Source of the DNA: Patescibacteria group bacterium
GTDB taxonomy: Bacteria; Patescibacteriota; Dojkabacteria; JAKAPS01
Reading direction: 5' to 3'
Length of the DNA stretch: 44,797 nt
Assembly (NCBI GenBank): GCA_025450075.1
Contig: JANWIC010000019.1
Span: 1-44,797 of the forward strand
Under the pieces are notes generated by a model. It worked only from the letters and a program-made list of their open reading frames with translations. It ran no database searches and was not told the origin of the DNA. This document shows, one piece after another, positions 381-23,927 of this stretch. Position 1 is the first letter of the stretch. Every line of letters starts with the position of its first letter. Made by a program: the position numbers and the translations under genes.

Positions 381-409
381 TTTCCATTCCTGGATAATTA
401 TTGTACACT
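381..409 (+). promoter_or_regulatory. possible promoter of the type IV pilus operon
   Basis: TTTCCA (381-386), a 17 nt spacer and TACACT (404-409) lie upstream of pilB in the 99-nt divergent gap. Both boxes match consensus at four of six positions, so this is the best candidate seen but a weak one. It overlaps the alternative TTG start at 401, which supports the later ATG at 434 as the real start of pilB. Confidence 0.35.
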
Positions 410-433
410 AGTATCATCTATCATAAGCTGCCC

Positions 434-2203: not shown

Positions 2204-2220
2204 TTCATGCAAACATCATT

Positions 2221-3270: not shown

Positions 3271-3279
3271 TCGAGGTCA

Positions 3280-4494: not shown

Positions 4495-4495
4495 A

Positions 4496-4503
4496 AGGAG
4501 GTG
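4496..4503 (+). promoter_or_regulatory. strong Shine-Dalgarno sequence of the major pilin gene
   Basis: AGGAGGTG begins just after the pilC stop codon and ends 9 nt before the ATG at 4513. It is the only full-length canonical ribosome-binding site I found ahead of any gene in the window, and it rules out the in-frame GTG at 4501, which lies inside it. Confidence 0.8.
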
Positions 4504-4512
4504 AAAATATAT

Positions 4513-5028: not shown

Positions 5029-5051
5029 AATGAAATTAATTTGTTCTGGTC

Positions 5052-5645: not shown

Positions 5646-6502
5646 TGATTATTGATATTGCCATAGCTTTCTTTGTCTTTCTATTTGGATCCTCAATCGG
5701 CTCCTTTCTTCATGCAACTTCTGAACGAGTTTTTAATAAGGAAGAATTTATTAAATCCCGATCACATTGTTTAGCATGTAATAAGACACTGTCAGCTTTA
5801 GATCTTGTACCTTTTTTCAGTTATATTTTTCTTAATGGAAAATGCAGATATTGTAAAGCAAAGATTCCATTTGATGTGTTCTTGGCTGAAACAATTCTTG
5901 GCATATTGTATGTATGTTCATATTTTGTTGCAAAACCTCTTCTTGATATGAGTGAAACAATGTTTATCCTTTATTGGGGATATATTGCGTTAAGCATATC
6001 TTTTTTCTTTTTTGTTGCATTATATGACTATAGATACTATATCATTCCTGATGTAGCTGTTTATCTCGCTACATTATTTACTGCCCTACTTCTTATTGTT
6101 ATCTATATTCTTCATCTTGCCGGATTCAGTTTCTTTGCCTATGCAGATTACAACACTTTCCTTTTCCAGCATTTTATAACGGCAATTGTATTATTTCTTT
6201 TTTTCCTATCTATCTATATATTTACAAAAGCAAGAGGAATAGGTGGAGGTGATGTGAAGCTATCTTTTCTAATTGGATTACTACTCGGAGCACGTCCGAC
6301 TATTATCTTTTTGTATGTGGCATTCTTTTCAGGTGCATTAGTATCAGTCGTATTGCTTTTAGGGGGATCAAGGAAAATAAAAGATTCAATTCCCTTCGGT
6401 CCATTCTTGGCATTTGGGGTTATTATAGCTATACTGTACTCAGGAGCGATTCTAAATACTCCTATATTTAGCTTTGTTAACTACTTAACAAGTCTTTTTT
6501 GA
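5645..6502 (+). CDS. pilD: prepilin peptidase / N-methyltransferase PilD (A24 family)
   Basis: PilD is the membrane aspartyl protease that removes prepilin leaders and N-methylates the new N-terminus. The 285-aa product has the N-terminal domain with two zinc-type CxxC pairs (C42/C45 and C67/C70), which is linked to the methyltransferase activity in this family. The catalytic aspartates are D128 (in ALYDYRYYIIPD) and D203 (in GIGGGDVKLS, the GxGD motif). About seven to eight hydrophobic segments follow. Its location inside the pilin cluster, with one-nucleotide overlap to the pilin before it and one base between its stop and the next gene, fits co-expression with its substrates. Confidence 0.93.
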   Translation: MIIDIAIAFFVFLFGSSIGSFLHATSERVFNKEEFIKSRSHCLACNKTLSALDLVPFFSYIFLNGKCRYCKAKIPFDVFLAETILGILYVCSYFVAKPLLDMSETMFILYWGYIALSISFFFFVALYDYRYYIIPDVAVYLATLFTALLLIVIYILHLAGFSFFAYADYNTFLFQHFITAIVLFLFFLSIYIFTKARGIGGGDVKLSFLIGLLLGARPTIIFLYVAFFSGALVSVVLLLGGSRKIKDSIPFGPFLAFGVIIAILYSGAILNTPIFSFVNYLTSLF

Positions 6503-6503
6503 T

Positions 6504-7232
6504 ATGAAAATAAGGACAGGATTTACATTGATTGAGCTTCTAATAGTCATGGCAATTATGGGGCTTTTATTAGGTTTATCAGTAAATGGAGTAAACAACC
6601 TGCGTATGACACAAGATATTCAGACAGAAGCACAAAACATTCTCTTTTATATAAATAAAGCAAGGGCTTATGCCACTAATGAGCAAGTTGGTAGTATAAA
6701 TGACAAGTGGGTATACGGCTATGTATTTACCCTCTATACTTCAGGAAATGTGCGGGGGTATTGTATTGATAAATGGTATAGTACTAATGCTAATTCTGAT
6801 CCAACCTCACCAAACTTTACTTTCCCCGGTACTCTCACACAGATGCTTAATCCCTCTATCAATCCAAATGCAGGAAACTATAGATTTCCATATGCCTCGG
6901 TAAGATGCCCTGGTCATACAACAGGAACAGGCTTTGATGAAGTAGAAGAAGGTGTGCTAGATAACAAAGGCCCTTATGTTGAAACTTGGACTAGCGGATA
7001 TATTACCTATCTTGTCTTTGAAAATCTTACAGGCAATATGTATATGTTTGCAGGTAATCAACAGGGAAACGGTAATGATGGGATGCTTGTTCAGGGAGGA
7101 GGAGATCAAAACCTATATATCTGGGATAGAAGGCTTCCGCCAAATCCAGTGCCTGCAGGATCAACAGCAAAAAACAGCCTACAAATTATAGCTTATTCTG
7201 ACTCTACTTATGATCCGCCGCATATTAAATAA
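6504..7232 (+). CDS. minor prepilin-like protein (GspH/FimT type)
   Basis: The 242-aa product begins MKIRTG then FTLIELLIVMAIMGLLLGL, a short 6-residue leader with a perfect prepilin peptidase site. The segment after the helix (about residues 28-55, with QTEAQNILFYINKARAYATN) resembles the GspH/FimT pseudopilin domain, in which the helix leads into a beta-rich globular head. It is larger than most GspH proteins. It overlaps the next pilin gene by 23 nt. A role as a minor pilin priming or capping the fibre is inferred from family and operon position. Confidence 0.82.
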   Translation: MKIRTGFTLIELLIVMAIMGLLLGLSVNGVNNLRMTQDIQTEAQNILFYINKARAYATNEQVGSINDKWVYGYVFTLYTSGNVRGYCIDKWYSTNANSDPTSPNFTFPGTLTQMLNPSINPNAGNYRFPYASVRCPGHTTGTGFDEVEEGVLDNKGPYVETWTSGYITYLVFENLTGNMYMFAGNQQGNGNDGMLVQGGGDQNLYIWDRRLPPNPVPAGSTAKNSLQIIAYSDSTYDPPHIK

Positions 7233-7836
7233 TGTGAAACAATATAAACAGAAGATCGATACCAGAGGACTTAGCCTTATTGAAGTATTGATAGTACTTG
7301 CAATCACAGGCTTTACACTTATTGCATTATTAAACCTTTCAACACGAGATCTTGGCATTGAAAAATTGAATGAACAGCAAGATGTTGCAAACTACATTAC
7401 TTCTTCCCAAATGCAATCATTTGATGCAACAAAAACATTAGCTCCTTCTTGTCTTCAATCACTTGTAACCAACTGGTCGGTCAATAAAAATATATATTAT
7501 ATTTGTCATGCGAATAATCTTTCATCAATTGGTACAGTGGTAAATGGATGCACCGTTAGTGGAAATGGAAATTCTTCCAGCCAGCAATACTGGTATTTAT
7601 ACCTTTCAACTAGTTCAAACTATATCGACACAGCACAGCAGAATATTAATCAACAAACAGCACCTTTTTATGATTGTCAAACCACTTTCGGCTCTTCAGG
7701 CGCGTATGATGAAAGACTTCAAGTAACAAATGTTGATACTAGTGCCCGAACAATTACATTATCAAGTCAAGTCAAATGGACTAATTTTAATGGAAAAGTT
7801 AATAACCTATCATTAGATCAGCAATATATATATTGA
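7210..7836 (+). CDS. minor prepilin-like protein (PilV/GspI type)
   Basis: The 208-aa product has a longer basic leader ending in TRG (residues 17-19), followed by LSLIEVLIVLAITGFTLIALL. Leu replaces the usual Phe at mature +1, as is common in PilV/GspI-type minor pilins, and Glu+5 is kept. The rest is a beta-rich globular region of about 150 residues with several cysteines and no further recognisable motif. It overlaps the previous gene by 23 nt and the next by one nucleotide (TGATG). Assignment to PilV type rests on the N-terminus only. Confidence 0.78.
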   Translation: MIRRILNNVKQYKQKIDTRGLSLIEVLIVLAITGFTLIALLNLSTRDLGIEKLNEQQDVANYITSSQMQSFDATKTLAPSCLQSLVTNWSVNKNIYYICHANNLSSIGTVVNGCTVSGNGNSSSQQYWYLYLSTSSNYIDTAQQNINQQTAPFYDCQTTFGSSGAYDERLQVTNVDTSARTITLSSQVKWTNFNGKVNNLSLDQQYIY

Positions 7837-8423
7837 TGAAAAAAAGGAAGCTGTCAAAAAATAATAAGGGATTTACGCTGATCGAAATCATGATTGCAAT
7901 GGCAATCTTTGGGTTTCTCTCATACATTATTACTTCGCTGCTTATTATTATAATCGGCTCAGTATACAACGTAAATCAACGATCATATCTTAGAACTACG
8001 GTTGAAACAGCAATTTCAACGATTAGTGAAGATGTGCAATTTGCCCAGGATGTGACAGATTGTTCCGCTTCAAACGGAGGGGTTGCACAATCATGTATAA
8101 GCATGACGGTGCCATCCACTGGACTTGGAAATACAAGCGGTGGAGTAAGTTACTCCAAGTTTGAAAAAATTTATGCAACTACAGTAAATGGATTGCCAAG
8201 CATTATGAAACTTGTTATTATAAATGGAGTAAGCAGTTCAGTACGCCTGAATCCTTCAAATATATCTATTGATAAAGGAATATTTGATTTAGAATCTAGC
8301 AATTATCAACAAGGAAATATTATCTTGACAGTACAGGCGCATATAGCTCAGAGGACTAACTCAGTGAATTCAAATAATAAAGCAAGCGTATTTTTAAGCT
8401 CTAATATAGAATATGGAAGATAA
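7836..8423 (+). CDS. minor prepilin-like protein (PilW/GspJ type)
   Basis: The 195-aa product carries a 12-residue leader ending NNKG, followed by FTLIEIMIAMAIFGFLSYI. This is a clear type IV prepilin signal with Glu+5. The region after the helix (QRSYLRTTVETAISTISEDVQFAQDVTDC) matches the amphipathic helix seen in PilW/GspJ minor pilins, and the rest is beta-rich. An in-frame TTG three bases earlier is an unlikely start; ATG at 7836 overlaps the upstream TGA. The gene overlaps the next one by 11 nt. Confidence 0.8.
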   Translation: MKKRKLSKNNKGFTLIEIMIAMAIFGFLSYIITSLLIIIIGSVYNVNQRSYLRTTVETAISTISEDVQFAQDVTDCSASNGGVAQSCISMTVPSTGLGNTSGGVSYSKFEKIYATTVNGLPSIMKLVIINGVSSSVRLNPSNISIDKGIFDLESSNYQQGNIILTVQAHIAQRTNSVNSNNKASVFLSSNIEYGR

Positions 8424-9300
8424 AATCAAATTACTTAAAGGCCTTAAAAAAAACAATAGTGGTCAGGCTTTACTTCTTATAATTGTTGTTCTATTTATCG
8501 TATTCTTTCTTGTAGTATCCTTAAGTGAAAATATTTCAGTTGATACAGTAAATACTATCCAGAATCAAAATTTCCAGAAAGCTTTTGCTGCAGCAACATC
8601 AGGATTAAGCGCTGCTAAAAACTATATCACTACGAATGGATGTTGTGGAAACAACTCTTCTCTTTCCTCGGGCATACTTTCCTACGGAACAGGTTATCAA
8701 TATAATTATGTGATTCAAGCTCAACAGGAAATTAATCAGAATGTGCAAAGCGATTATACCCTTCAAGCACTTGTTGACTCCTCCACAACTGCAGATATCG
8801 CATTTAATAGATCTTCCAGCATTCTTTTTGCTAATGTCATATTTAAAACACCACAAACAATTAATGGAGTTCAAACGATGAATGCAGAATGTGTTTTTTA
8901 TCCTCAAGGAATGTCTTTAAATGGAGTACAGGCTAATCTTGGAAGCTTTTCCCAGGGGCCTTCCAGCATTTGTGGAGCAATTGGCCCTGCTTTACCGCTT
9001 CAGACTAGCGGAACATATAATGGATATTATGAAACTACTTTAAATTTAAATAACAATGCACAATTTATTCGTGCATATGTAGTAAACTATAATACTGGAC
9101 TTCTTACCAATATCATTATTCATCCAAGTCAAACATCAATACAGCAATATCAGATTATTGCAACTGGTTATTATAATAATAGCAGAAGAGATATTGATGC
9201 TTATTTCAGTCTTCAAGGAGATCCACCTGGCATATTTGATTATGTACTATTTAATGGAGAGACAAATAGTGTTGGAAACCCTCCTCCACTTGCATTTTAA
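8413..9300 (+). CDS. PilX-like minor pilin or pilus-associated protein
   Basis: The 295-aa product starts with a basic stretch, then SGQALLLIIVVLFIVFFLVV, a single N-terminal membrane helix preceded by a glycine. It lacks the FTLIE box and the Glu+5. This pattern, with SG then ALLL, is typical of PilX/GspK-type proteins, which cap or initiate pili. The helix is followed by FQKAFAAATSGLSAAKNY, like the conserved EAGxxAA segment of PilX. The remaining roughly 220 residues are Ser/Asn/Gly-rich and probably beta-structured, ending in VGNPPPLAF. Operon position just after three minor pilins matches the usual H-V-W-X order, which supports the assignment. Confidence 0.65.
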   Translation: MEDKIKLLKGLKKNNSGQALLLIIVVLFIVFFLVVSLSENISVDTVNTIQNQNFQKAFAAATSGLSAAKNYITTNGCCGNNSSLSSGILSYGTGYQYNYVIQAQQEINQNVQSDYTLQALVDSSTTADIAFNRSSSILFANVIFKTPQTINGVQTMNAECVFYPQGMSLNGVQANLGSFSQGPSSICGAIGPALPLQTSGTYNGYYETTLNLNNNAQFIRAYVVNYNTGLLTNIIIHPSQTSIQQYQIIATGYYNNSRRDIDAYFSLQGDPPGIFDYVLFNGETNSVGNPPPLAF

Positions 9301-9314
9301 TTTAACAACTCAAA

Positions 9315-9707
9315 ATGGATGATGTAACTATACCGAAAAAAATCGTTGTCATAGAAGACGAGAAGTACATAATGGATATGTACAAAGAAATAATGGAGGA
9401 ATCTGGCTTCAATGTACGTGCAGCACAAAATGGTGAATCAGGATTAGCTGTAATTGAAGAATTCAAACCTGATCTAATCATGCTTGACTTGATGCTTCCA
9501 GGAATTGATGGAATGGAAGTATTACGTGTGGTTCGAAAAGACCCGGTTAAATATGGAACACCTATCATCGTAGTCTTAACAAACCTTTCAAATGAAGTAA
9601 TGATAAAAGATGCATTTTATGAAAAAGCAGATGGGTACCTCATGAAAACCGAATTGACACCTGAACAGGTTGTAAGTGAAGTGAAGGGTTTTCTTCATAT
9701 GAACTAA
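9315..9707 (+). CDS. stand-alone CheY-like response regulator receiver
   Basis: The 130-aa protein is a single REC domain with no output domain. All key residues are visible: acidic pair E14/D15, phospho-acceptor D58 (in DLIMLDLMLPG), T89 and K111 (in YLMKT). Such receivers act by phosphorylation-dependent protein contacts and are common in pilus loci (PilG/PilH type) and in Patescibacteria. No histidine kinase is in the window, so the phosphodonor is unknown. It sits 14 nt after the PilX-like gene and 2 nt before pilN, inside the operon. It may tune pilus assembly or retraction, which is inferred from context. Confidence 0.88.
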   Translation: MDDVTIPKKIVVIEDEKYIMDMYKEIMEESGFNVRAAQNGESGLAVIEEFKPDLIMLDLMLPGIDGMEVLRVVRKDPVKYGTPIIVVLTNLSNEVMIKDAFYEKADGYLMKTELTPEQVVSEVKGFLHMN

Positions 9708-9709
9708 AT

Positions 9710-10261
9710 ATGAGTAATACAATCAACCTATTGCCCGTCAGGACAAAGGACCAAATTAAAACTGAATTCAGAAAGTTTAAATACGACTTTATAACCTCAA
9801 TCGTCATTCTCGGTGTTGTACTACTTGGCATATTCTTGATGTTTATCCATGCCTTTTTAGAATATAACTTGAATCAGTTAAATAGCAATATTACAAAACA
9901 GATGAATGTTTTAAAAACATATCAAAATTTCATCCATGGTTATCAGATAATTGATGAAAAAGCACAACAGGTAAAATTAATAAACAAAAACAAGGTTGAT
10001 CCGGCGGATGTTATAAATTATATGTATACACTTATCCCATCTGGTTCTACACTATCTAATTTTGCATTGGATGAGCAGCATAATTTTACCGTAACAATTG
10101 CAAGTTCAAACTATATAGATATTGCAAGATTTTTAGTCATATTGGAGAATCCTCAAATTCGTTTAACACAAACAGAAATTAAAGGAATATCTTTCAGTAA
10201 AAGCCAAAACATTTATAACTTTGTTATTTCAGGTACATATGTAAAACCAAATGGACAATAA
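9710..10261 (+). CDS. pilN: PilN-like type IV pilus assembly protein
   Basis: PilN is a bitopic inner-membrane protein that binds PilM through its cytoplasmic N-terminus and pairs with PilO. The 183-aa product begins MSNTINLLPVRTK; the NLLP motif is the PilM-binding signature of PilN. A single membrane segment spans about residues 29-51, a coiled-coil-prone region covers about 52-95, and a small ferredoxin-like domain follows. Length fits the family. It overlaps pilO by 11 nt. The assignment is strong because of the NLLP motif and the neighbouring pilO and pilM. Confidence 0.85.
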   Translation: MSNTINLLPVRTKDQIKTEFRKFKYDFITSIVILGVVLLGIFLMFIHAFLEYNLNQLNSNITKQMNVLKTYQNFIHGYQIIDEKAQQVKLINKNKVDPADVINYMYTLIPSGSTLSNFALDEQHNFTVTIASSNYIDIARFLVILENPQIRLTQTEIKGISFSKSQNIYNFVISGTYVKPNGQ

Positions 10262-10937
10262 GGCTAATAATAAGGACTTACAATTTAATACATTTCTTTA
10301 CTTTATCCGTGGATATTTTATTCCTGTAATCGGAGTTATTGTTATTCTTCTTGTAATCATATTTATATATATTCCCAATACTACAGGTATATTTGGAGAT
10401 ATTGGAACAATTAGTGACAAAAACACCAAATACAATCAAGTAAGACAAAAAACTGATTTTTATCATTCTCTCTCTACAACAGATAATGAGTTAAAGCAGG
10501 TTGATGCTTTAACTGCAATTAATACAAAACTGCCAGACCAAGTTAAAAGTGCTGATGCTATTGATGCATTGCAGCAGGTTGCACAAACCGACGGAGTACA
10601 GGTATTAAGTGCAAGTGGAACATTACTTCAAAACAATCAGTTAAATGGAACGATTACAATTTCTCCATTAGTGCAAGTGAGTGAAATTATCCTTCATGTT
10701 TCAGGAACCATTGATAATTTGAAGAAACTTTCAACTGACATATCAAAAATGCCTCAGCTTACATCAATCAATACTTCATCATGGAATGGTGGATTAAGTC
10801 CAGGGACTACATTAGAAGGATTGTTTACTGTAGATGTTTACTTCCTAGATTCAAATGCAATTTCAGGAAGCGTTGATTTGCTTGCAAATGTTAATACAGG
10901 ATATACATCGGATGTGATAAACAATTTGACATATTAA
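10251..10937 (+). CDS. pilO: PilO-like type IV pilus assembly protein
   Basis: The 228-aa product has one N-terminal membrane segment (about residues 22-44), a helical/coiled-coil stretch (about 58-90) and a C-terminal alpha/beta domain containing LPDQVKSADAIDALQQVAQT, which resembles the start of the PilO periplasmic domain. PilO heterodimerises with PilN and aligns the assembly platform. Sequence identity to known PilO is likely low, so the call leans on topology and on the gene being sandwiched between pilN and pilM. It overlaps pilN by 11 nt. Confidence 0.75.
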   Translation: MDNKANNKDLQFNTFLYFIRGYFIPVIGVIVILLVIIFIYIPNTTGIFGDIGTISDKNTKYNQVRQKTDFYHSLSTTDNELKQVDALTAINTKLPDQVKSADAIDALQQVAQTDGVQVLSASGTLLQNNQLNGTITISPLVQVSEIILHVSGTIDNLKKLSTDISKMPQLTSINTSSWNGGLSPGTTLEGLFTVDVYFLDSNAISGSVDLLANVNTGYTSDVINNLTY

Positions 10938-10939
10938 TG

Positions 10940-10969
10940 TTGACTGAAAGCATTGTTTTATACTATATT
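10940..10969 (+). promoter_or_regulatory. internal promoter in front of pilM
   Basis: TTGACT (10940-10945), an 18 nt spacer and TATATT (10964-10969) lie in the 53-nt gap between pilO and pilM, ending 21 nt before the pilM ATG. This suggests pilM can be transcribed separately from the rest of the operon. Confidence 0.55.
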
Positions 10970-10990
10970 TAATTAGATTACACCACTCAT

Positions 10991-12022
10991 ATGGCTATAG
11001 AATATTTTGGACTAGATTTTGGACATGCGACGCTTAAAGCTATAGAGCTTAGAAGGAATGGTAAAATCCATGAACTGGTGACATTTGGATCAGTCCCTAC
11101 TCCACCGGGAGCTTTAGGTAGTGAAAATGATGATCAGAAAAATAATTTGGTAAAGGCGATAAAATTATTGGTAAAAGATTTGAACTTGAAAACTAAAAAA
11201 GTAGTCATATCAATTCCTGAAGCATTTGTTTCTTCAAGACTTATCCAGGTTCCATATGTAGATGAGGCCCAATTAGATGAAGCAATTCACTGGCAGGCTA
11301 AACAATACATTCCTGTCCCTCTTGATGAAGTGAATATGAGTTATAGAAGAATTGGTGAATCTTATACAGCTGATGGGGTAAAACAATGGAATATATTCCT
11401 TGTTGCAGTATCAAAACTTCTTATCGAGTATTATATTACTCTTCTCAAACGCGCTGGACTAGAACCTCTTGCAATTGAAACACAAGGCGCAGCGCTTGCA
11501 CGATCAATTTCAAAAAATGGAGATAAAACAGCTTCTTTAATTCTTGATGTGGGATATGACACAGCTACTATCGCAATAATTAAAAACCTTGAATTGATAT
11601 ATTCCCAATCCGTACCTACCGGATCAAATGCATTAACAAAAGCTATTGCTCAAGACTTTTCATTAGAATACGGACAAGCTGAAGAATACAAGAAAAGTTA
11701 TGGACTTGATGAAAGTCAATTGGATGGTAGAATTTATCGATCATTAAAGCCGGTTGTGGATGCTATAGTATCTGAAGTAACTAGAGCAATCGATTACTTT
11801 AAAATAAATTCTTCGGAAAATATGCCTACCAAAATTATTCTTGTTGGGGAAGGAAGTTATTTACCTGGACTTGTTATTTATCTTACCCAGATTTTAGGTC
11901 TTGAAATTCAATTGGGAAATCCTTGGATTGGTGTTAAAGTGAATGAACAAGGAAAACTTCCCCCACTTTCCCCTGCATATGCAGTCGCATTAGGACTTGC
12001 AATGAAGGATGATGAAATCTAA
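10991..12022 (+). CDS. pilM: PilM, actin-like type IV pilus assembly ATPase
   Basis: PilM is a cytoplasmic actin/FtsA-fold protein that binds the PilN N-terminus and links the assembly platform to the ATPases. The 343-aa product has the phosphate-1 segment FGLDFGHATLKAIELRR at the N-terminus, the conserved EAIHWQAKQYIPVPLDEV block (about residues 96-113), a phosphate-2 segment SLILDVGYDTATIAII and an adenosine-type segment IILVGEGSYLPGL. Family length is about 350. It ends tail-to-tail with the next gene, the two stop codons overlapping in CTAA. In most bacteria the order is pilM-N-O; here pilM comes last and has its own promoter. Confidence 0.92.
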   Translation: MAIEYFGLDFGHATLKAIELRRNGKIHELVTFGSVPTPPGALGSENDDQKNNLVKAIKLLVKDLNLKTKKVVISIPEAFVSSRLIQVPYVDEAQLDEAIHWQAKQYIPVPLDEVNMSYRRIGESYTADGVKQWNIFLVAVSKLLIEYYITLLKRAGLEPLAIETQGAALARSISKNGDKTASLILDVGYDTATIAIIKNLELIYSQSVPTGSNALTKAIAQDFSLEYGQAEEYKKSYGLDESQLDGRIYRSLKPVVDAIVSEVTRAIDYFKINSSENMPTKIILVGEGSYLPGLVIYLTQILGLEIQLGNPWIGVKVNEQGKLPPLSPAYAVALGLAMKDDEI

Positions 12023-13475: not shown

Positions 13476-14162
13476 TTATGTAAGTGCATCTAATGCATTT
13501 TTTGCAGCTTCTTGTTGGGCTTGCTGTTTACTCTTCCCTGTTCCCGTTCCCATTATTTTTCCTTTTACTAAGACATTTACCGTAAATGTCTTGTCATGAT
13601 CTGGTCCTTCTTCCTTTACCAGCTTATACACTGGTGTGAGCTTAAATCTTTCCTGGGTTACTTCCTGAAGATGTGATTTAGCATCAATATAGTCCTTGTT
13701 CTCAATGATCGTGTTTATTTTATCAAAAAAAACTGAAGAAAGGAACCTTTTACACTCTTCAATACCCTGGTCAATAAAAAGTGCTCCTAAAAATGCTTCA
13801 AATGTATTTGCTAAAATATATGGTCTTGTCCTTCCACCCGTCATCTCTTCGCCTTTAGACATGAGTATGAGCTCGCCAAAGCCCAATTCAGCGGATATAT
13901 CGGCAAGACTCTCCATCTTTACAACTGCTGATCGGAAGGTCGTCAAATCCCCTTCTCGAAGATTAGGGAACTTGTTGAAGAGATACTCTGAAACGAGAAT
14001 CTCAAGAACAGCATCTCCCAAAAATTCCAGTCGTTCGTTATGTTCAGTTGCAACTCCATTAGCTTCATTTAAAAATGACCTATGTGTAAATGCTGTTTGT
14101 AACAGCATCTTATCGTTAAATGTAATATGTATTTTTTCTTCAATTTTTTGTGTATTTTCCAT
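13476..14162 (-). CDS. rnc: ribonuclease III
   Basis: RNase III cleaves double-stranded RNA, including rRNA precursors. The 228-aa product has the catalytic signature [20 protein letters not shown], with the acidic residues of the active site, a second acidic cluster ([13 protein letters not shown]), and a C-terminal double-stranded RNA-binding domain (about residues 150-228) ending in [20 protein letters not shown]. Family length is about 225. I start it at the ATG at 14162; an in-frame start at 14180 would add six residues and lengthen the overlap with nusB from 23 to 41 nt. Confidence 0.94.
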
Positions 14163-14589
14163 TTTCCATATCATGCACAATATTTCCTAAAACACCATTG
14201 ATAAATGTAAAACTCTTATCCCCGCCAAATTCTTTTGCTAGCTCAATTGCCTCATCGATAACAACTTTTGTAGGTGCTGATTTTTGAGTATATAATATCT
14301 CAAAAATAGCCATACGAAGAATCCATAAATCAACTTTTGCAGTATCCTTTATCGGGCGCTTAGGAGTATAGTTAATAATGATCTTGTCAATCTCATCTCT
14401 ATGCTCCTCTACTCCATGCAAAAGCTCCTGCATAAATATCTCATCAGGCTGCATTTCATCGTACAAATCACTGTTGATATCTCGTAATTCGGCAATCTCA
14501 AAAGGGGCGTTAGACCGGAAGTCAAATTCAAATAATTTTTGCAGGGCAATTATCCGTGATTGATGTCGTGGATCATTGCGTGTCTTCAT
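14140..14589 (-). CDS. nusB: transcription antitermination factor NusB
   Basis: NusB binds boxA RNA with S10/NusE and promotes antitermination of rRNA operons. The 149-aa product has the N-terminal RNA-binding helix (RHQSRIIALQKLFEFDF), the central INYTPKRPIKDTAKVDLWIL segment and the C-terminal VVIDEAIELAKEFGGDKS(F)TFINGVLG block that defines the family. Length is normal. Its ATG overlaps the rpmF stop (ATGA) and its end overlaps rnc by 23 nt. Grouping with rnc and rpsP makes sense, since all act in ribosome production. Confidence 0.94.
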   Translation of the reverse strand: MKTRNDPRHQSRIIALQKLFEFDFRSNAPFEIAELRDINSDLYDEMQPDEIFMQELLHGVEEHRDEIDKIIINYTPKRPIKDTAKVDLWILRMAIFEILYTQKSAPTKVVIDEAIELAKEFGGDKSFTFINGVLGNIVHDMENGKYTKN

Positions 14590-14836: not shown

Positions 14837-17728
14837 TTACAACCCTACTTCCTGCTTGTTCTGAGCTGCTGTGAAAAAATGTGAAAACTTCGTAATATAT
14901 GATGGGTCATAACTAGTTTCTACTGCCGGATACCATTGGTTAAAATCCCCTATATCCAGTAAGAATTGTATATTACTGTATGAAAGAAGCATTCCTGATA
15001 TTTTCATTCCCTGGATGAAGTTTGGAACAGCCGGGTATGGATCAACTGTTAAGCTAGAATCAGTCAATATTCCCATATCAAGATACTGATAGATGAATTG
15101 ATTTATTCCTGGTCCAGTGTTTGTATAATAGCTAGTTGGTTTAATATCAACAACTGCATTTGTAATGAGAAGAAGCCTGTTGGTGGTATTAGCAAAATCG
15201 TTTTGATGGTCAGCTGTAATGGTGATAGTTCCTCCATTCGGGAAATATACAAGTAAAATTCCGTCTGTAGTCAGTCCACCGTTATCAGCGTTTATGGAAA
15301 GAGTTGCTCCAGTTGTATTGTCAGTATATTGGTAAATACCACTATTAAGATTATTTGTATTTGCATCAATCGTATTTGAAGGAAACGACCCAGCAGCTAG
15401 CTGTGTACAGGTATTTACTCCGGTGCCACACAACTCGTGATTTAAGCTCCCAAATCCATAGACATTTGAAAGGTTTCCATTTGAGTCATGGTTTATATAT
15501 GAAGGATAATACTGGAATTCCCAGTTGTAGAATGAGCCATATCCTCCATTACTAAAAACATTGGTTTTATCTGATAATAGTCCATATTCTGAGAAATAAG
15601 CTGGATTCGAACCAAAACCTCTTGGATTTGGACCACCAAGAGGTTGTGTATTATTTGATAATTGCTTAATGTTATAACCGCCTTGGGAAAAAGTGTTCCC
15701 CATTCTTGTTATATAGTATGGGCTATAATGTTGCTGTGCAGATCCGTACCCATAAAGAGGGGCGATATCATCCCATGATACTCCAGCTTGTGTGGGATAA
15801 TACAGATTACCATGAAATTTATATCCCATATATATCGAACTTGAAGAATATGCTCTTCCAAGATTATTTGCTATAGCGGCTGCTACCACATCTGGTCCAT
15901 AGAAAGAGTATATGCCGGCTGCATAGGTAGCAACATATAATTGTCCAAATCCATCTACTTCTGCCCCGTCAAATCCTGTCGGCGGACTAGGAGGAGCTGG
16001 GTTTGGTACATCATCAGTATATGTAACTCCTAATGTTGGGGTTCCGCCTTTCCAGTCAGCATGAGCAATGACAAAGATTACGCGTCCATAATCAGTAACT
16101 GCATAAATATTGCCGCTTGCATCTATTGTCATCCCATCTATTCCCCATCTACCCTGTATCAATATGACTTTTCCATTAAATACCAAGTTCCCTCCATTAA
16201 ATGAATTACCCATCTGCGTTTTATAGGTTAATCCATTATATGGTGCCGGGTGATTTCCTCCCGATGCATTAAATGGCTGAATTTCTCTATCACCTGTTGA
16301 GTTATTGATATATGCGACATACAATAATGGAAAGCCGAGATTTGTTTGGGCTTCAGTAATTCCGAAAAGTACTGACATATATCCAGTGTGGAGGAATTGG
16401 TATGCTGCAAGATTACCATTAATTGGTGTGACTAATACACCGGGGTTATTGATCCATCCATTTAAGGATGCATTAATTGTTGCAAAACTAATCCTAATAA
16501 CATATCCCTGGGTAATTGAAATGAATAAATTAGATGCATCCAATGTCATGTCAACGGTCTGCCCAGGAAAATTATTAATTAATTGAGTTGCCCGGACAGT
16601 TCCGGGTTGTACAATTTTGTGTATACTAGTATTATTGCTCCAATTCCAAGTCACAATCCAGATATCATTGCTTCCAACAGTTGATAATAAAACGACATTA
16701 TCATAGCCAGGATAATACAAGATTGAGTCTTTCCCCCTACCGTTATATGTTGGGTTATTATATACTCCTGATGTAGTTATAGTATTGGTTGCAACCCCTG
16801 TAAAGTATCCGGTTTGACACGGTGTTGTTCCTGAACCCGAAGGATTATTATCAAATAAAGTTAAAACGCTTCTGGTATTGTCACTAGCAAGAAGTGTTCC
16901 CGTAGCTGGTGTTCCACATTGAAAGTTTTTAGGAGCAGTTGCGTAAAAAAGCAGTGTGCTTGTACTTGATGTTCCAGCAGCGTTTCTTGCAGATACACGC
17001 AAATTAAAAGAGAAAAGGTCTGTGACCGGATCTCCTCCTATTGGGTTTAATGAAAAAGTATATGCATTTCCGTTGTTTGCATATGATGCTGTTGAAGTAG
17101 GTTTATTCGTGTCAACGACTGTTAAGATCCAGGTTGTTGTATATGAGATCGTTGAAGAAACACTAACCGAACCTGTAACAGAATCCCCTTCAGGTTTTAC
17201 ATCTCCTCCATTTACCTGTGTATTATTTTGGAAAGTATCAATTGCCGTTATTTGGCTAATAGTTGGAGGTTTTGGAGGAGGAGGTGTTGGTGTTGAGGTT
17301 GGTGTTGGTGTTGGAGTAGAACAATTAGTTGCATATATAACATTTTTATAATTCCCCCCAGCATCTTCACATGCCGCGGATCTAACTATACACCCACTTG
17401 AAGATAACGATGGCGTGCAAGCAAATGATGATCCGAAAAACATACATTGTGTTCCATACCCGCAATAAAATCCTGATGCCCCGCAAATGCCGCTTAAAGG
17501 TTGATAATTTTGACATGTGTTACAAAGATTTGGCCCACCGGAAACACATCGTCCTGTACCACCCCCATGAGCTGTACAATATTGACCTCCACTACAATCA
17601 CAATCACTCGTACAACTAACACTAGCGTAAGATTTTGTTGAAAAAAGAAAGTAAGATGCAATTATAAAAGCAATGCTTATTGAAAATAGGCGAAGCACTT
17701 GTATAAATCTATGTCGATTGGCAGTCAT
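14837..17728 (-). CDS. large secreted protein with Cys-rich head and propeller-like body (paralog A)
   Basis: The 963-aa product has a signal peptide (basic start, hydrophobic core about residues 10-28, probable cleavage after SYA at 35). A disulfide-type domain with 14 cysteines follows (residues 39-136), then a Thr/Pro linker (137-156). Next is an Ig-like segment (about 157-265) starting ISQITAIDTFQNN, and a body with propeller-like repeats such as DGMTIDASGNIYAVTDYGRV and FDGAEVDGFGQLYVATY. The C-terminal domain (about 810-963) ends SYITKFSHFF...QEVGL. Apart from the Cys-rich head and linker it aligns along its length with the protein at 18847-21285. It has no sortase motif or C-terminal membrane anchor. 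I do not recognise a named family; a surface or pilus-associated adhesin is inferred from architecture and location. Confidence 0.75.
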   Translation of the reverse strand: MTANRHRFIQVLRLFSISIAFIIASYFLFSTKSYASVSCTSDCDCSGGQYCTAHGGGTGRCVSGGPNLCNTCQNYQPLSGICGASGFYCGYGTQCMFFGSSFACTPSLSSSGCIVRSAACEDAGGNYKNVIYATNCSTPTPTPTSTPTPPPPKPPTISQITAIDTFQNNTQVNGGDVKPEGDSVTGSVSVSSTISYTTTWILTVVDTNKPTSTASYANNGNAYTFSLNPIGGDPVTDLFSFNLRVSARNAAGTSSTSTLLFYATAPKNFQCGTPATGTLLASDNTRSVLTLFDNNPSGSGTTPCQTGYFTGVATNTITTSGVYNNPTYNGRGKDSILYYPGYDNVVLLSTVGSNDIWIVTWNWSNNTSIHKIVQPGTVRATQLINNFPGQTVDMTLDASNLFISITQGYVIRISFATINASLNGWINNPGVLVTPINGNLAAYQFLHTGYMSVLFGITEAQTNLGFPLLYVAYINNSTGDREIQPFNASGGNHPAPYNGLTYKTQMGNSFNGGNLVFNGKVILIQGRWGIDGMTIDASGNIYAVTDYGRVIFVIAHADWKGGTPTLGVTYTDDVPNPAPPSPPTGFDGAEVDGFGQLYVATYAAGIYSFYGPDVVAAAIANNLGRAYSSSSIYMGYKFHGNLYYPTQAGVSWDDIAPLYGYGSAQQHYSPYYITRMGNTFSQGGYNIKQLSNNTQPLGGPNPRGFGSNPAYFSEYGLLSDKTNVFSNGGYGSFYNWEFQYYPSYINHDSNGNLSNVYGFGSLNHELCGTGVNTCTQLAAGSFPSNTIDANTNNLNSGIYQYTDNTTGATLSINADNGGLTTDGILLVYFPNGGTITITADHQNDFANTTNRLLLITNAVVDIKPTSYYTNTGPGINQFIYQYLDMGILTDSSLTVDPYPAVPNFIQGMKISGMLLSYSNIQFLLDIGDFNQWYPAVETSYDPSYITKFSHFFTAAQNKQEVGL

Positions 17729-17737
17729 GGACGAATT

Positions 17738-17762
17738 CTTATGTATATAGAATATACATAAG
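17738..17762. repeat. perfect 11-bp inverted repeat over the -10 box of paralog A
   Basis: CTTATGTATAT and ATATACATAAG are exact inverted repeats separated by AGA. They cover the -10 box (17749-17754) of the promoter of the large secreted protein. This fits a dimeric repressor operator or a leader hairpin. It also lies 36 nt past the stop of the upstream gene, but without a T-tract it is a poor terminator candidate. Confidence 0.7.
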
Positions 17763-17777
17763 CTGAGAAAAAATCAA
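17749..17777 (-). promoter_or_regulatory. promoter of large secreted paralog A
   Basis: On the minus strand TTGATT (17777-17772), a 17 nt spacer and TATTCT (17754-17749) precede the ATG at 17728 by 20 nt. The -10 box sits in the centre of a perfect palindrome (17738-17762). Confidence 0.6.
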
Positions 17778-17797
17778 GAAAGTAAATTCTTAGAAAT

Positions 17798-18577
17798 CTA
17801 TAAACGAGAAATTGGGTAGACTGGACAATGCTCATAAAGATTTTCAAGAGCTCCATTTAATTGCTCTTGATTATAAGGATCTTTATTATATGCAGTATAA
17901 AGTGCAGTCAAAGCATTTCCTAAAGGATTATCCCCAGTTAGTGCTAATTGAGTTTGGCTCCATGGGTATAAAATTGCTGCTAAAAATAGAACCTGCTCAA
18001 TTGGAAGTCTTGTTAACCATTGTTCTATTGAAGAGTTTATAAGTTGATTGTAATATTGTTGGAAAATCGTATCTATTGAATATCCATTGTCAATAAGCAG
18101 TTTTATTCCTGAACTAATTCGGATTGCATCAGGACCATTATATGCTCTGTTTATCTTCTTTCCTATTGTATGAGATGAAATACTTGCAAAATTACAACTT
18201 TCTACTGCGGCAAGATTTATTAACCCATTTGCTAAACTTCCAGCACGTTTTTCTAGATCTCCTACTAAATTTCCATCTGTTGATTGTATAGATGCAGCTG
18301 GAGTAATTGTTCTATTGCGATGCCTATCTAGCATTCTTAATGCAAAATAACATGTGACAGCACCGCCAGCAAATAAAGCTGTTCGACGTGTCACTTGCCG
18401 TGCTTGAGGGTCAATAGATCTAACTAACTCTCTTAAAAATAATCCATATTCTCTGTCGATGTCAATTTCTAAAGTATCACCGTCAGCTGATTCTACTAAT
18501 TCTGCATATATATAATCAACTGGTTGAAGTTCAACCCCTCCATTTATTTCACCTGAATCTCCACTATCTGTCTCCAT
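17798..18577 (-). CDS. uncharacterised single-pass membrane protein
   Basis: I do not recognise this 259-aa protein. Residues 1-60 are acidic and hydrophilic. One hydrophobic segment, TALFAGGAVTCYFALRML (about residues 66-83), is bounded by RR (64-65) and further basic residues. A mostly helical C-terminal domain of about 170 residues follows. The segment resembles a twin-arginine signal but is 64 residues from the N-terminus, so an internal membrane anchor is more likely. It lies between the two large secreted paralogs on the same strand and has its own strong promoter. A link to them is possible from position only. Confidence 0.65.
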   Translation of the reverse strand: METDSGDSGEINGGVELQPVDYIYAELVESADGDTLEIDIDREYGLFLRELVRSIDPQARQVTRRTALFAGGAVTCYFALRMLDRHRNRTITPAASIQSTDGNLVGDLEKRAGSLANGLINLAAVESCNFASISSHTIGKKINRAYNGPDAIRISSGIKLLIDNGYSIDTIFQQYYNQLINSSIEQWLTRLPIEQVLFLAAILYPWSQTQLALTGDNPLGNALTALYTAYNKDPYNQEQLNGALENLYEHCPVYPISRL

Positions 18578-18846
18578 TTATTCTGTAGATAATATTATGG
18601 GCTATTATAGCAAATATAATCAACTTTATCAATAATAATATTATCAATTTGCATGTTTGAATTAACTTCTTTTATTGATGAGCTTGGACTGGGGGAAAGA
18701 TTATCAGAGAAGAAACAATACTTCTTAAAATAAACTTCATGGTTTAAACCTTGGTTTGGTTTTTGCCTATGCATAATAGATAAATGCAGTGCATTTTATG
18801 AGTTAAATATAGCAGGTGAAGGAAATTTTGGCAAATTAGTAGAGAA
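18578..18846. other. longest intergenic stretch in the window
   Basis: This 269-bp gap holds the promoter at 18604-18632, a palindromic stretch around GGTTTAAACC and AAACCTTGGTTT (near 18741-18757), and a short inverted repeat AAATGC/GCATTT near 18783-18797. On the minus strand 18740-18672 encodes 22 residues, MKFILRSIVSSLIIFPPVQA then two more, which looks like a bare signal peptide. It may be a remnant of a larger secreted gene or chance. I see no RNA gene here. Confidence 0.4.
18604..18632 (-). promoter_or_regulatory. promoter of the uncharacterised membrane protein gene
   Basis: On the minus strand TTGATA (18632-18627), a 17 nt spacer and TATAAT (18609-18604) match consensus at 11 of 12 positions, 26 nt before the ATG at 18577. 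No Shine-Dalgarno sequence lies in the leader. Confidence 0.7.
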
Positions 18847-21285
18847 TTACAATCCTACTTCTTGTGAAAATACAGGTGCTTCAAAAAAGTGTGAAAATTT
18901 TGTTAAATAACTTGCATCATAATCAATCTCTACAGCAGGATCAAATTGATTAAGGCTCCCTGCATTAAAGTTTAATGAGACTTTTCCATAGGATATGAGC
19001 ATCCCCTTTATTACCATTGGTTGAGTAACATTTGGTGCTATTACATAATTATCAACAGTGATGTTTCCATCAGCCACAACCATCATATACAAATATTGTT
19101 TAAGAATTTGATTAGATTGAATATTGTACGGAGGATTCGCAGGATGGATATCGACATTACCGTCTGTTATGAGAAGGATTCGATTAGATGATTTAGCAAA
19201 ATCATCCATATTATCTATTGTTATATTAATATTACCTCCACCTAAAACGATTAATACTCCATCTCCATAAAGTCCTCCATTACTTGCATCGATTGTAAAA
19301 GTACAACTGCTATTACAATTATATGTATATACTCCCCCGCTCATGTTATTAGGAGTGCTTGAAAGGCTTGTTCCACTGTATGATTGGCATTTTTGTGTTC
19401 CACAAATTTGTGAATAGAGAGATTTGGCAGTATATATTGCTTTGAGTCCACCTGAATGATTTAAATTAGAAGCATAATGTTGGAATTCCCAATGGTAAAA
19501 ACTTCCTGTACCATTCAAAATTGTATTTGTTGCATCTGAGATAAGAGAATATGTAGAGAAGGGATTACCCATGACTTTAGAAATTGCATACCCACCTTCT
19601 GAATAGACATTTCCCTGAGTAGTTAAATAATATGGGGAGGGGGCTGCTCCAATACTTTTAAATGGTGCTATATCATCCCATGATTCACCATTAGGAACAC
19701 CATAATATTGGATGAATGGAATAGTATATCCCTGATAAATTGCTTGAGTTCCAATATATGTAGTACTATTTCGATTATTACCAATAGCAGCTTTTATGAC
19801 ATCACTTGCATTTGTTGAGTATATTCCCGTGAGATATCCAGCGATATATAACTGACCGAATTGATCAATTTCGGCTCCATCAAGTCCAGTTGCCATACCA
19901 TTTTTTGCAGGAGTCGGATCAGGAATATTTGGTGCATAGGTCAGTCCAAGAATTGATGCGCCTTTATTACCTGGTGCGCTATTATCAACATTTTGTAATA
20001 CAAATATAAGTTTGCCGTAATCAGTTACAGAATAGATATATTTATTATCATAACTTACTGTCATCCCATCCATTCCCCAATTGCTTTGCAGAGCGAGTGC
20101 ATGATTATTAAATGTATATCCCTGCGGTCCGAACCCGGTGTCCAAAACATACACTGGTTTTGGATTTAACCCTTTATTAGCAGGATAAGCAGCAAATATT
20201 TTATGTCCATTGATATTACTTACATATGACAAATATAGTAATGGTCCGCTTTTTGCATTTACCAACACAATCCCATTTATATTTTGCATAAAACCTTGAT
20301 TTAAGAAAGTATCATTGACCGCATTTACAGGTGATACAATGCTTCCTGGATTGATTAACCAACCGTTTAATGCATTCGAAATTGATGAAAAAGGAATCCT
20401 AAGAATATAATTAGGCCCGCATGATATGAAAAGATAACCAGCTCCTGTATCCATATCAATTGCCCATTGTGCACCAGGAGGAATATTGAAAACAATTTGG
20501 GTAGCACGGACAGATTGTGGATCAACTTCGTTATTAATATTACTTGCTTTCCAATTCCAGGTTACAAGCCAAATGTCTCTTCCATGTACAGTACTTACAA
20601 ATGCTGCGTTATCTGTGCCAGGATAATATATGACTGAATCTTTAGGAATATTATTATAAGTAGGATTATAATATGGACCTGGGACAGTTGTTATTACATT
20701 TTGTTTATTTGTTGTATTTGTAAAATATCCTGTTTTACAGGTTGCATTTGAGTCATTTGGGTCAGGTGGATTGTTATCAAAAAGAATTAGATCTTTATTT
20801 ACTATATCTGTAGTTAATAAAGCGCCTGTTGCAGGAGTCTTACAAGATGCGTTTACTTGTGTTGCTGTATAGAAAACAAATGTTTGGTTGCTGCTTCTAT
20901 TTCCATTGGAATCAGTAGCAAATGCCGTCACTTTATATGAATATGTATCACCAGGCTGTCCAGTAAGATTATTAATAGTTAGCGGTGCAAGGGTAAAAGA
21001 GTCTGTAAAACCAGTATTTGTAGTGGTTTGTGAAAGAGATGTGTTATTCATATCTGTTTCAACAATATTCCAAAATACAGTTGTTACTCCATTTCCTTTT
21101 GCAGAAATACTTAAGCTAACTTGATCTCCGGAAGGACGGCTGTCATTTAGATTAATTGTGCTATTTTGACTAGTATCAACCGCTGAAATTTTTGAAATTG
21201 TTACGGATGCAGCATAGGTAGATGCGCTTGTAGCTATTGAAACAAATGGAGAAAGAGCTAAAAGTACAAAAAACAACTTTCGCAT
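18847..21285 (-). CDS. large secreted propeller-like protein (paralog B)
   Basis: The 812-aa product has a signal peptide (MRKLFFVLLALSPFVSIATS, probable cleavage after TYA near residue 25) and goes straight into the Ig-like segment ISKISAVDTSQNS. It thus lacks the Cys-rich head and Pro/Thr linker of paralog A. The body shares matching blocks with A: YYPGTDNAAFVSTVHGRDIW, DGMTVSYDNKYIYSVTDYGK, LDGAEIDQFGQLYIAGYLTG. So does the C-terminal domain, with GDGVLIVLGGGNINITIDN, SNRILLITDGNVDI and ASYLTKFSHFF...QEVGL. The pattern of short beta strands with D-x-x-G turns suggests an extracellular beta-propeller. The C-terminal domain resembles segments I associate with patescibacterial PilX-like proteins (recollection, not a search). 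A possible promoter lies at 21308-21335. Confidence 0.75.
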   Translation of the reverse strand: MRKLFFVLLALSPFVSIATSASTYAASVTISKISAVDTSQNSTINLNDSRPSGDQVSLSISAKGNGVTTVFWNIVETDMNNTSLSQTTTNTGFTDSFTLAPLTINNLTGQPGDTYSYKVTAFATDSNGNRSSNQTFVFYTATQVNASCKTPATGALLTTDIVNKDLILFDNNPPDPNDSNATCKTGYFTNTTNKQNVITTVPGPYYNPTYNNIPKDSVIYYPGTDNAAFVSTVHGRDIWLVTWNWKASNINNEVDPQSVRATQIVFNIPPGAQWAIDMDTGAGYLFISCGPNYILRIPFSSISNALNGWLINPGSIVSPVNAVNDTFLNQGFMQNINGIVLVNAKSGPLLYLSYVSNINGHKIFAAYPANKGLNPKPVYVLDTGFGPQGYTFNNHALALQSNWGMDGMTVSYDNKYIYSVTDYGKLIFVLQNVDNSAPGNKGASILGLTYAPNIPDPTPAKNGMATGLDGAEIDQFGQLYIAGYLTGIYSTNASDVIKAAIGNNRNSTTYIGTQAIYQGYTIPFIQYYGVPNGESWDDIAPFKSIGAAPSPYYLTTQGNVYSEGGYAISKVMGNPFSTYSLISDATNTILNGTGSFYHWEFQHYASNLNHSGGLKAIYTAKSLYSQICGTQKCQSYSGTSLSSTPNNMSGGVYTYNCNSSCTFTIDASNGGLYGDGVLIVLGGGNINITIDNMDDFAKSSNRILLITDGNVDIHPANPPYNIQSNQILKQYLYMMVVADGNITVDNYVIAPNVTQPMVIKGMLISYGKVSLNFNAGSLNQFDPAVEIDYDASYLTKFSHFFEAPVFSQEVGL

Positions 21286-21369: not shown

Positions 21370-21903
21370 TTATTCTTCTTTTTGGTATATATCAAATTGC
21401 ACGATTCCATACGTTCTTGTATCGATTAGTTCAATATCTTCTACTGGTTTAAAATGATCCTTTTTATGGTGCTCAAATATGAGTATCCCATGAGGAGCCA
21501 GCAATTGTGCAGCACTTTTTGCCATATAATATTTTGCTTCAGGATATGGAGGACATACAAATATAATGTCATATTCTTCTCCAATATTCTCTTTAATAAA
21601 TTCATCTGCCTTTATTTGTACAACATCGGCATTTTCTTCAAAATGGGTCTTTTGTAAATTCATCCTGACACTTTGACATGATCTTTTTGATATATCAACA
21701 AAAGTTGCATTACGTGCTCCTCTGCTGAGGGCTTCAATTCCTAAAGCCCCTGACCCTGCATACAAGTCAAGGACAACACTTTCTGGTATTTTATCTCTTA
21801 TAATATCAAACAGAGCGCTTTTTGCGCGATCAGATAATGGTCTTGTTCTCATATCTAATGATATGAGGGGTATACTCCCTGCTTTTCCTGAAATGACTCT
21901 CAT
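21370..21903 (-). CDS. rsmD: 16S rRNA (guanine966-N2)-methyltransferase RsmD, with altered catalytic motif
   Basis: RsmD methylates G966 of 16S rRNA. The 177-aa product has the RsmD start MRVISGKAGSIPL, then MRTRPLSDRAKSALFDII and the SAM-binding motif VLDLYAGSGALGIEALSRGA (about residues 43-62). The rest of the Rossmann fold follows, and length is normal. The catalytic motif IV, normally (D/N)PP(F/Y), reads CPPY, with cysteine at residue 117 (codon TGT at 21555-21553). The surrounding IIFV and P of the motif are intact, so this is not a frameshift. It lies 5 nt downstream of recG, an arrangement often seen in bacteria. Confidence 0.85.
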   Translation of the reverse strand: MRVISGKAGSIPLISLDMRTRPLSDRAKSALFDIIRDKIPESVVLDLYAGSGALGIEALSRGARNATFVDISKRSCQSVRMNLQKTHFEENADVVQIKADEFIKENIGEEYDIIFVCPPYPEAKYYMAKSAAQLLAPHGILIFEHHKKDHFKPVEDIELIDTRTYGIVQFDIYQKEE

Positions 21904-21908
21904 AGTTG

Positions 21909-23927
21909 TTAATTTAATTTAGCAATTTCTTTTTTGAATTCTTCCAATTGCTTATATATACTACTATTCCTTTTTAAACCTTTCGTCAATATCCCCTGCG
22001 CGACTTCTTTTGTTTTGGTAATTAGCCCAACATCAAGAAGAGATGCTGCTTTTAGGGTTGGTATGCCTGATTGTTTTACGCCATAAACTTCACCCGGTCC
22101 CCTGTTTTGAAGGTCAAATTCTGCAATCTTTAATCCAGATGTGTTTTGACTAAATACTTGTAACCGTTCAATGCTTTCCTGCTCGGCTTGAGAAGTGAGC
22201 AAGAAACAGTATGATTGGTATTCCCCCCTTCCTACCCGTCCCCGAAGCTGATGCAGCTGTGCGAGTCCGAATCGCTCTGCTCCTTCTATTACCATGACAG
22301 AAGCATTCGGTACATCGATACCGACTTCAACCACAGGGGTTGATACGAGAATATCATACTCATGTCTTTTAAATGCTTCTAAAATCTCATCTTTCTCCCC
22401 TACTTTCATTTGTCCGTGCAGCAAGACTAATCGATAATTCGGGAATATGTCTTTTTTCAATCTTTCAAATTCTTCTTTTGCTGATGCAACATTTAATTTA
22501 TCTGAAAGACTGATAAGAGGGCAGATGATAAAGGCTTGTCTCCCTTCATCAAGTAGTGTCTTGATAAACGAATACATATCATCACGTTTTTTTTCAGGAA
22601 CTATTCGAGTAAGAATCTCTTTTCTCCCCTTTGGCAATTCATCAAGATATGATATATCCAGATCTCCGTAAATGCTTAATGCAAGGGTTCGAGGTATTGG
22701 GGTTGCAGTTAATGTCAAAGAGTGAATGAGATTCCCGTTTTTGTTTACCATCTTTTCTCGTTGATGAACACCAAAACGATGTTGTTCATCAACTATTGCA
22801 AGGCTAATTCGGTCAAGAATTTCTTGTTTGAATAATAACGCTTGCGTGCCTATAAAAATTTTTGATTCCTTTTTCGGTTTTGATTTGTTTGTAACCAATG
22901 ATACATGTTCTTCTTTAATTCCATACATGGAAAAAAGATTTACAAATGTATCATAATGCTGTTTTGCAAGGATGCTGGTAGGTGCCATAATTGCCACATC
23001 TTCTCCAGCTAAGTATGCATGATATACTGCAGCTGCAGCGACAACAGTTTTACCAGATCCAACATCTCCTTCCAAAAGCCTGTTCATAGGAGTGTTAGTT
23101 TGCAAATCGCAAAGTATTTCAGTCGTTGCCTTTTGCTGTGCTTCAGTTAGGGAAAATGGCAAACTTTTAACATATGTAGCTATTGTATTGCTGTCAGATG
23201 GAATAGGTTTTGCAGATCCATTTTTAGCAATATTTCGTTTTTCCTGCATTAACAATTGAATCAGAAGCATTTCATCAAATGCAATACGTGCTATCCCATT
23301 ACTCGCTTCATCTACACTTTCAGGAAAATGGATAGCATGAATTGCTTTATCTAGATCCACCAGATTATAAGTTTCACGTATTTCTACAGGAAGCCATTCT
23401 TGAATGGTTACTTTTTCAAGAGCATAATGAATTCTGCTTCCAAGCCATTTTGATGAAACACCTTTGGTTTCCGGATAGATTGCCGTCAGTTTTCCTAAAT
23501 GAAGTGCAGTTCCTTCTTTTAATACTTCATAGGATGGAGAAATGAATTTTGGTTTAAAAAAATCTTCAAATGTCACTTTTCCGCTTATCATAACCTCCTG
23601 GCCGACAGGAAGAGTTTTTGTTAAGTATTGCTGATTAAACCAGATGATATCTGCAATTCCACTCGCATCTTCTATGACTGCTTCGGTAAGTTTCTTGCCA
23701 TACCTTGTATATATATTACGGATTTCAAGGATTTTACCTTGTATTGTTACAAGATTTTGTGTATCAGCTGGAATATTTTTTATAGCAAGTATTTGCGATG
23801 TATCTTCGTATCGGAAAGGAAGATGATACAACAGATCTTTTATAGTATATATATTTAACTTTGCAAGTTTATTTGCATTTGCCTCACCGACAAATGGGAG
23901 AACATCGACATACGTGTGTAAATCCAT
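21909..23927 (-). CDS. recG: ATP-dependent DNA helicase RecG
   Basis: RecG remodels stalled replication forks and branched DNA. The 672-aa product has the N-terminal wedge/OB-fold domain (about residues 55-150) and a superfamily 2 helicase core. Core motifs include Walker A LLEGDVGSGKTVVAAA, the DEQH box AIVDEQHRFGVHQRE, motif III TLTATPIPRTLA, motif V STPVVEVGIDVPNASVMVIE and motif VI QLHQLRGRVGRGEYQSYCFL. Family length is about 680-690. It follows a tiny membrane-protein ORF after 2 nt and precedes rsmD by 5 nt, and is probably transcribed from the promoter at 24045-24074. Confidence 0.95.
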   Translation of the reverse strand: MDLHTYVDVLPFVGEANANKLAKLNIYTIKDLLYHLPFRYEDTSQILAIKNIPADTQNLVTIQGKILEIRNIYTRYGKKLTEAVIEDASGIADIIWFNQQYLTKTLPVGQEVMISGKVTFEDFFKPKFISPSYEVLKEGTALHLGKLTAIYPETKGVSSKWLGSRIHYALEKVTIQEWLPVEIRETYNLVDLDKAIHAIHFPESVDEASNGIARIAFDEMLLIQLLMQEKRNIAKNGSAKPIPSDSNTIATYVKSLPFSLTEAQQKATTEILCDLQTNTPMNRLLEGDVGSGKTVVAAAAVYHAYLAGEDVAIMAPTSILAKQHYDTFVNLFSMYGIKEEHVSLVTNKSKPKKESKIFIGTQALLFKQEILDRISLAIVDEQHRFGVHQREKMVNKNGNLIHSLTLTATPIPRTLALSIYGDLDISYLDELPKGRKEILTRIVPEKKRDDMYSFIKTLLDEGRQAFIICPLISLSDKLNVASAKEEFERLKKDIFPNYRLVLLHGQMKVGEKDEILEAFKRHEYDILVSTPVVEVGIDVPNASVMVIEGAERFGLAQLHQLRGRVGRGEYQSYCFLLTSQAEQESIERLQVFSQNTSGLKIAEFDLQNRGPGEVYGVKQSGIPTLKAASLLDVGLITKTKEVAQGILTKGLKRNSSIYKQLEEFKKEIAKLN

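Follow-up and report, generated by a model that had tools for sequence, protein, structure and literature searches.

A recurrent C-terminal module of secreted proteins in Dojkabacteria and other Patescibacteria as a candidate docking domain for type IV pilus heads

Two large secreted paralogues encoded in a Dojkabacteria contig (GenBank assembly GCA_025450075.1, JANWIC010000019.1; the window is the whole stretch of 44,797 nucleotides that was analysed) are best explained as accessory heads or adhesins that are carried by type IV pili in the manner of PilY1 and docked by a conserved C-terminal module, predicted to be a beta-solenoid, a reading to which we give a probability of roughly 60%. The variable N-terminal part, composed of a Cys-rich region, a domain resembling fibronectin type III (Fn3) and the body, would meet a target outside the cell, most likely another cell, and grip this partner. 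The module, with a length of about 270 residues, would dock the protein onto the pilus, probably at the minor-pilin tip complex, and the pilus used would be the product of the operon at a distance of 3 kb. We infer attachment by the module from gene context and from a weak fold match to ComZ, and docking on the pilus tip and binding of a host cell are likewise inferred. The features concerned are collected in Table 1.

Table 1 Features of the window and of related loci (window positions unless preceded by a locus handle)
Feature	Position	Strand	Description	Basis
Type IV pilus operon	401..12022	+	pilB, pilT, pilC, pilins, pilD, minor pilins, PilX-like, CheY-like, pilN, pilO, pilM	Pfam, N_methyl and T2SSF matches
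PilX-like protein before CheY-like gene	8413..9300	+	no Pfam match over cut-off	39% identity to G001 protein in same place
rnc and nusB	13476..14589	-	conserved flank between pil operon and pair	Pfam; same neighbours in G001 and sister family
963-aa secreted protein	14837..17728	-	signal peptide, Cys-rich region, P/T-rich linker, Fn3/Ig-like domain, body, C-terminal module	ORF; paralogue of 812-aa protein
C-terminal module of 963-aa protein (residues 669-963)	14840..15724	-	found phylum-wide	profile match E 6e-117
812-aa secreted protein	18847..21285	-	signal peptide, Fn3/Ig-like domain, body, C-terminal module	ORF; structure model
C-terminal module of 812-aa protein (residues 550-812)	18850..19638	-	last ~200 residues predicted beta-solenoid	profile match E 1.6e-121; model, Foldseek
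Body of 812-aa protein	19639..20865	-	possible propeller	pLDDT below 50; segments 392-455 and 455-545 align, hhalign E 2e-4
Fn3/Ig-like domain of 812-aa protein (residues 27-140)	20866..21207	-	best Foldseek matches fibronectin type III domains	AlphaFold pLDDT about 70-80
rsmD and recG	21370..23927	-	other flank of pair	blastp of relatives
Operon-encoded first parts of module, sister family	L106:3324-5936, L112:6295-8190, L113:7177-9816		end at profile position ~98	
Unlinked second-part proteins, sister family	L047:6487-8139, L048:7514-9181, L049:6570-8219		end with positions ~103-158	

Both open reading frames are present as the first-pass annotation had described them, and their alignment, which starts at the Ig-like segment and continues through to the C-terminal residue, is borne out by BLASTP (41% identity over 830 aa, E 1e-174); in the window genome (1.11 Mb, 25 contigs) no other matches were found. 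Their N-termini, judged by eye, resemble signal peptides of the Sec type, as had been claimed. The reported lack of a sortase signal or membrane anchor also holds, since a motif scan of both proteins found no LPXTG, lipobox or prepilin motif and no hydrophobic segment beyond the first. Between the two genes lies a 259-aa open reading frame (17798-18577, minus strand) that is unrelated to them and matched no family; in a close relative (G001), other genes occupy this place.

The C-terminal domain is not restricted to this pair, but recurs as a module on secreted proteins that otherwise differ. The relative G001 encodes a full-length homologue of 1097 aa and, directly before it, a secreted protein of 504 aa that has only its last 260 residues in common with the pair and a different N-terminus. 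A first profile, built from the C-termini of these two proteins and of the window pair, gave matches in 23 of the 86 genomes from the Patescibacteria class to which Dojkabacteria (WS6) belong. With a broader profile of 18 copies, 71 of the 86 were positive (45 of the 53 good-quality ones), as were 89 in a set of 380 genomes that spans the phylum, in which the reversed profile used as a control found nothing. Named relatives are mostly Candidatus Dojkabacteria (WS6), and this assigns the window genome to that class. The match stops 0-23 residues short of the C-terminus in the distinct proteins that were read, and within the class the ending is typically FFGTEAPIYKQEVGFKPF, outside it QKWSEIAGP or WEEIP; the QEVGL end of the window pair is the class ending minus its last residues. 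An N-terminal hydrophobic segment is present in 27 of 28 full-length carriers that were checked, and a prepilin motif in none of them. A Cys-rich N-terminal region occurs in most of these carriers, as in the 963-aa protein. The N-terminal parts of the proteins that were read differ. With the HMMER filters off, weak module matches also appeared in pilB and pilM (L116, L118) and in other known or unrelated proteins; these were put down to chance.

The association of the module with type IV pili shows in gene context. The complete pil operon that had been noted close to the pair is confirmed by Pfam matches to pilB and pilT (T2SSE), pilC (T2SSF), an N_methyl pilin, pilD (A24 peptidase), a response regulator and PilM_2, while pilN, pilO and the PilX-like gene, which are without a Pfam match, were named by position and likeness. 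The search of other genomes that the annotation had proposed showed that relatives often carry the module gene within their pil operon. In 12 of 16 pil loci that were read (L096-L103, L107, L108, L110, L111), it shares the strand of the pil genes and is located within the operon or at its end, most often in the order pilB-pilT-pilC-pilin-pilD-minor pilins-CheY-like-module-pilM-pilN, and in two more (L104, L105) it adjoins the operon on the opposite strand. A module gene within 20 kb of pilC on the same contig was found in 28 of the 71 positive class genomes against 6.2 expected from random placement (P about 6e-13), and in 15 of 60 positive genomes outside the class against 4.4 expected (P about 1.5e-5); the P values ignore relatedness of the genomes, and the counts are lower bounds because of contig breaks and an incomplete list of pilC genes. 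The occurrence of the module throughout the phylum, its C-terminal position in proteins with an N-terminal hydrophobic segment and the location of its gene in pil operons support the pilus-head reading. Against it stand the position of the window pair outside the operon and on the other strand, the 43 of 71 class genomes with no pilC within 20 kb of the module gene (many have pilC on other contigs), and the weakness of the ComZ match. The CheY-like response regulator gene of the window (9315-9707, plus strand) is located inside the pil operon, and its place beside the module gene is the same throughout the class, a hint that the pili may be regulated.

The chromosomal site of the pair seems to be peculiar to its own family. 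The two genes are found between nusB and rsmD, on the strand opposite to the pil operon and 3 kb away from it, beyond rnc-nusB. In both the window and G001 the slot before the CheY-like gene is taken by the PilX-like protein, a possible docking partner, and the module genes are between nusB and rsmD. In the sister family within the same taxonomic order (L106, L112-L114, L116-L118), a secreted protein with a partial module is encoded in the operon, in the interval between the last pilin and the CheY-like gene. Where the contig extends, rnc-nusB follows the operon, and in L112, L115 and L117 rnc-nusB is followed by rsmD-recG without surface genes in between. This comparison indicates that the pair occupies a family-specific place beside the pil block, and it may have moved there from the operon. 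Two further proteins without a Pfam match are encoded nearby, one beside the pil locus (12019-12918, minus strand) and one after recG (24190-24753, plus strand).

The module of the sister family appears to be divided between two unlinked secreted proteins. In the operon-encoded protein, the match ends at profile position 71-98, and the next gene, the CheY-like one, begins within about 30 bases in six of seven loci (L106, L112, L113, L116, L117, L118; the seventh, L114, ends at a contig edge), which leaves no room there for the remainder of the module. Profile positions 103-158 instead end another secreted protein, unlinked to the first (read in G003, G004, G006 and G008, and by coordinates only in G009). 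These second parts have modest scores, but their boundaries are complementary to those of the first parts. It is conceivable, if on balance doubtful, that the predicted solenoid is a common socket for exchangeable pilus heads, which in the sister family would be completed in trans from parts covering positions ~7-98 and ~103-158; if true, heads could be exchanged in this family without any change to the pil operon. Downstream of one second-part gene, a 368-aa protein (L047:8186-9292, plus strand) is encoded that has an LPNTG motif and a C-terminal hydrophobic segment, and may be a sortase substrate.

The module could also be a general domain for retention or sorting at the cell surface, for example by binding to the envelope or an S-layer, in which case the link with pil genes would reflect no more than clustering of surface genes. 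The many carriers that are not encoded near pil genes would fit such a role, and so would the second-part protein of the sister family that is encoded beside an alaS-ruvX-yceG block and the LPNTG protein. We nevertheless consider this explanation unlikely, as many families have the module gene within the operon, in the interval between the CheY-like gene and pilM, and as proximity to pilC is enriched outside the class as well.

Structure prediction gives the pilus-head reading some further support and raises another possibility for the function of the module. Folded alone, the module was modelled with a pLDDT of about 75 in the core (mean 60) and a pTM of 0.65. The module is predicted to be a beta-solenoid. 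Weak matches to beta-solenoids of ice-binding proteins (E 0.04-0.05, probability about 0.9) head the Foldseek results; at rank 9 stands ComZ of Thermus, a weak match (E 0.96, probability 0.57) obtained with a model of mean pLDDT 60. The closest structural relative of the solenoid of Thermus thermophilus ComZ (PDB 6qvi) is itself an ice-binding protein, and ComZ has been argued to be located at the pilus tip and binds DNA (PMC6561018). That both the module and ComZ come out near ice-binding solenoids is a suggestive agreement between a model and a known structure, and both are tied to type IV pili. However, the ComZ solenoid sits inside a pilin, whereas the prepilin motif is absent from the pair and from the 28 carriers. 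If the module were, like ComZ, a receptor for DNA uptake at the pilus tip, the pair would serve competence instead of host contact, and competence genes are indeed widespread in the phylum. Yet the large and variable ectodomains are better suited to adhesins, and with a fold match as weak as this one a DNA receptor is decidedly improbable.

For the body of the pair, the proposal of a propeller could not be confirmed. In the 812-aa protein, AlphaFold2 predicted an all-beta N-terminal domain with fair confidence, and Foldseek, run with this model, placed fibronectin type III domains on top, whereas the body, with only two sequences usable in the alignment, stayed below a pLDDT of 50. Its internal repeat is confined to one weakly aligning pair of segments, as other matches were overlaps or insignificant. 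The D-x-x-G-x-(I/L)Y block, which had been described as repeated, does occur above chance (about 0.05 expected from shuffling), but calling it repeated was generous, with two copies in the 963-aa protein and one in the 812-aa protein. A propeller is thus a possible fold for this part. That the pair are secreted enzymes with a catalytic propeller and a module serving export only, as the propeller-like blocks might suggest, is the least probable of the explanations, since searches of Pfam, NCBIfam and PHROGs turned up no enzyme family and searches of the PDB no sequence match, and since the N-terminal parts vary among module carriers.

The same searches gave no meaningful match of any kind for either protein, and Pfam, NCBIfam and PDB searches with the 18 module copies yielded nothing usable. 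One of these copies is weakly matched by DUF7305 (PF23981, E 0.013), but membership was rejected, as there are no matches over the cut-off in the 86 genomes and none of six weak DUF7305 matches is at the module position. Membership of PilY1 (PF05567) was rejected too, with no Pfam match at E values up to 1 and none in the 86 genomes, the control panel being without positives. Viral contigs that were searched held no relatives of the pair, so there is no sign of a phage origin. A description of the module was not encountered in the literature searched, which left preprints and most subscription journals outside its reach. The best reading is that the docking module is undescribed and different from that of PilY1.

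In spite of this difference, PilY1 offers a close model for how the pair may function. In the type IVa pilus systems of Myxococcus and Pseudomonas, PilY1 has a type I signal peptide, a poorly conserved N-terminal region and a conserved C-terminal domain, and is encoded together with minor pilins in several paralogues (PMC7541494). The pair shares the signal peptide, the variable N-terminal part, the conserved C-terminal domain and the occurrence of paralogues; module genes accompany minor pilins in the 12 loci of relatives, whereas the window pair lies only beside the operon. By sequence the pair has no PilY1 domain, and the C-terminal domain of PilY1 is a modified propeller, in contrast to the predicted solenoid. 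In this reading, the pair would work like PilY1 by analogy without being filed as a member of its family. Another relevant example is PilX2, a propeller protein of the T4P-2 system of the Saccharibacteria strain TM7x, without which host binding is incomplete (PMC12206443); a part played by pilus-borne heads in contact is therefore plausible. PilX2 is likewise a pilus-linked protein of Patescibacteria without a PilD signal and a proposed adhesin, and a propeller-like part is suspected in the pair as well. However, PilX2 has been described as pilin-like and lollipop-shaped, with an RCC1 propeller at its C-terminus, whereas the pair ends in the predicted solenoid module.

Type IV pili are leading suspects in the open question of how members of the Patescibacteria recognise other cells and hold on to them (PMC6744442; PMC12206443). 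As a sequence marker of likely pilus heads, the module would allow candidate recognition proteins to be listed across the phylum, and its split version may offer a direct handle on assembly in trans.
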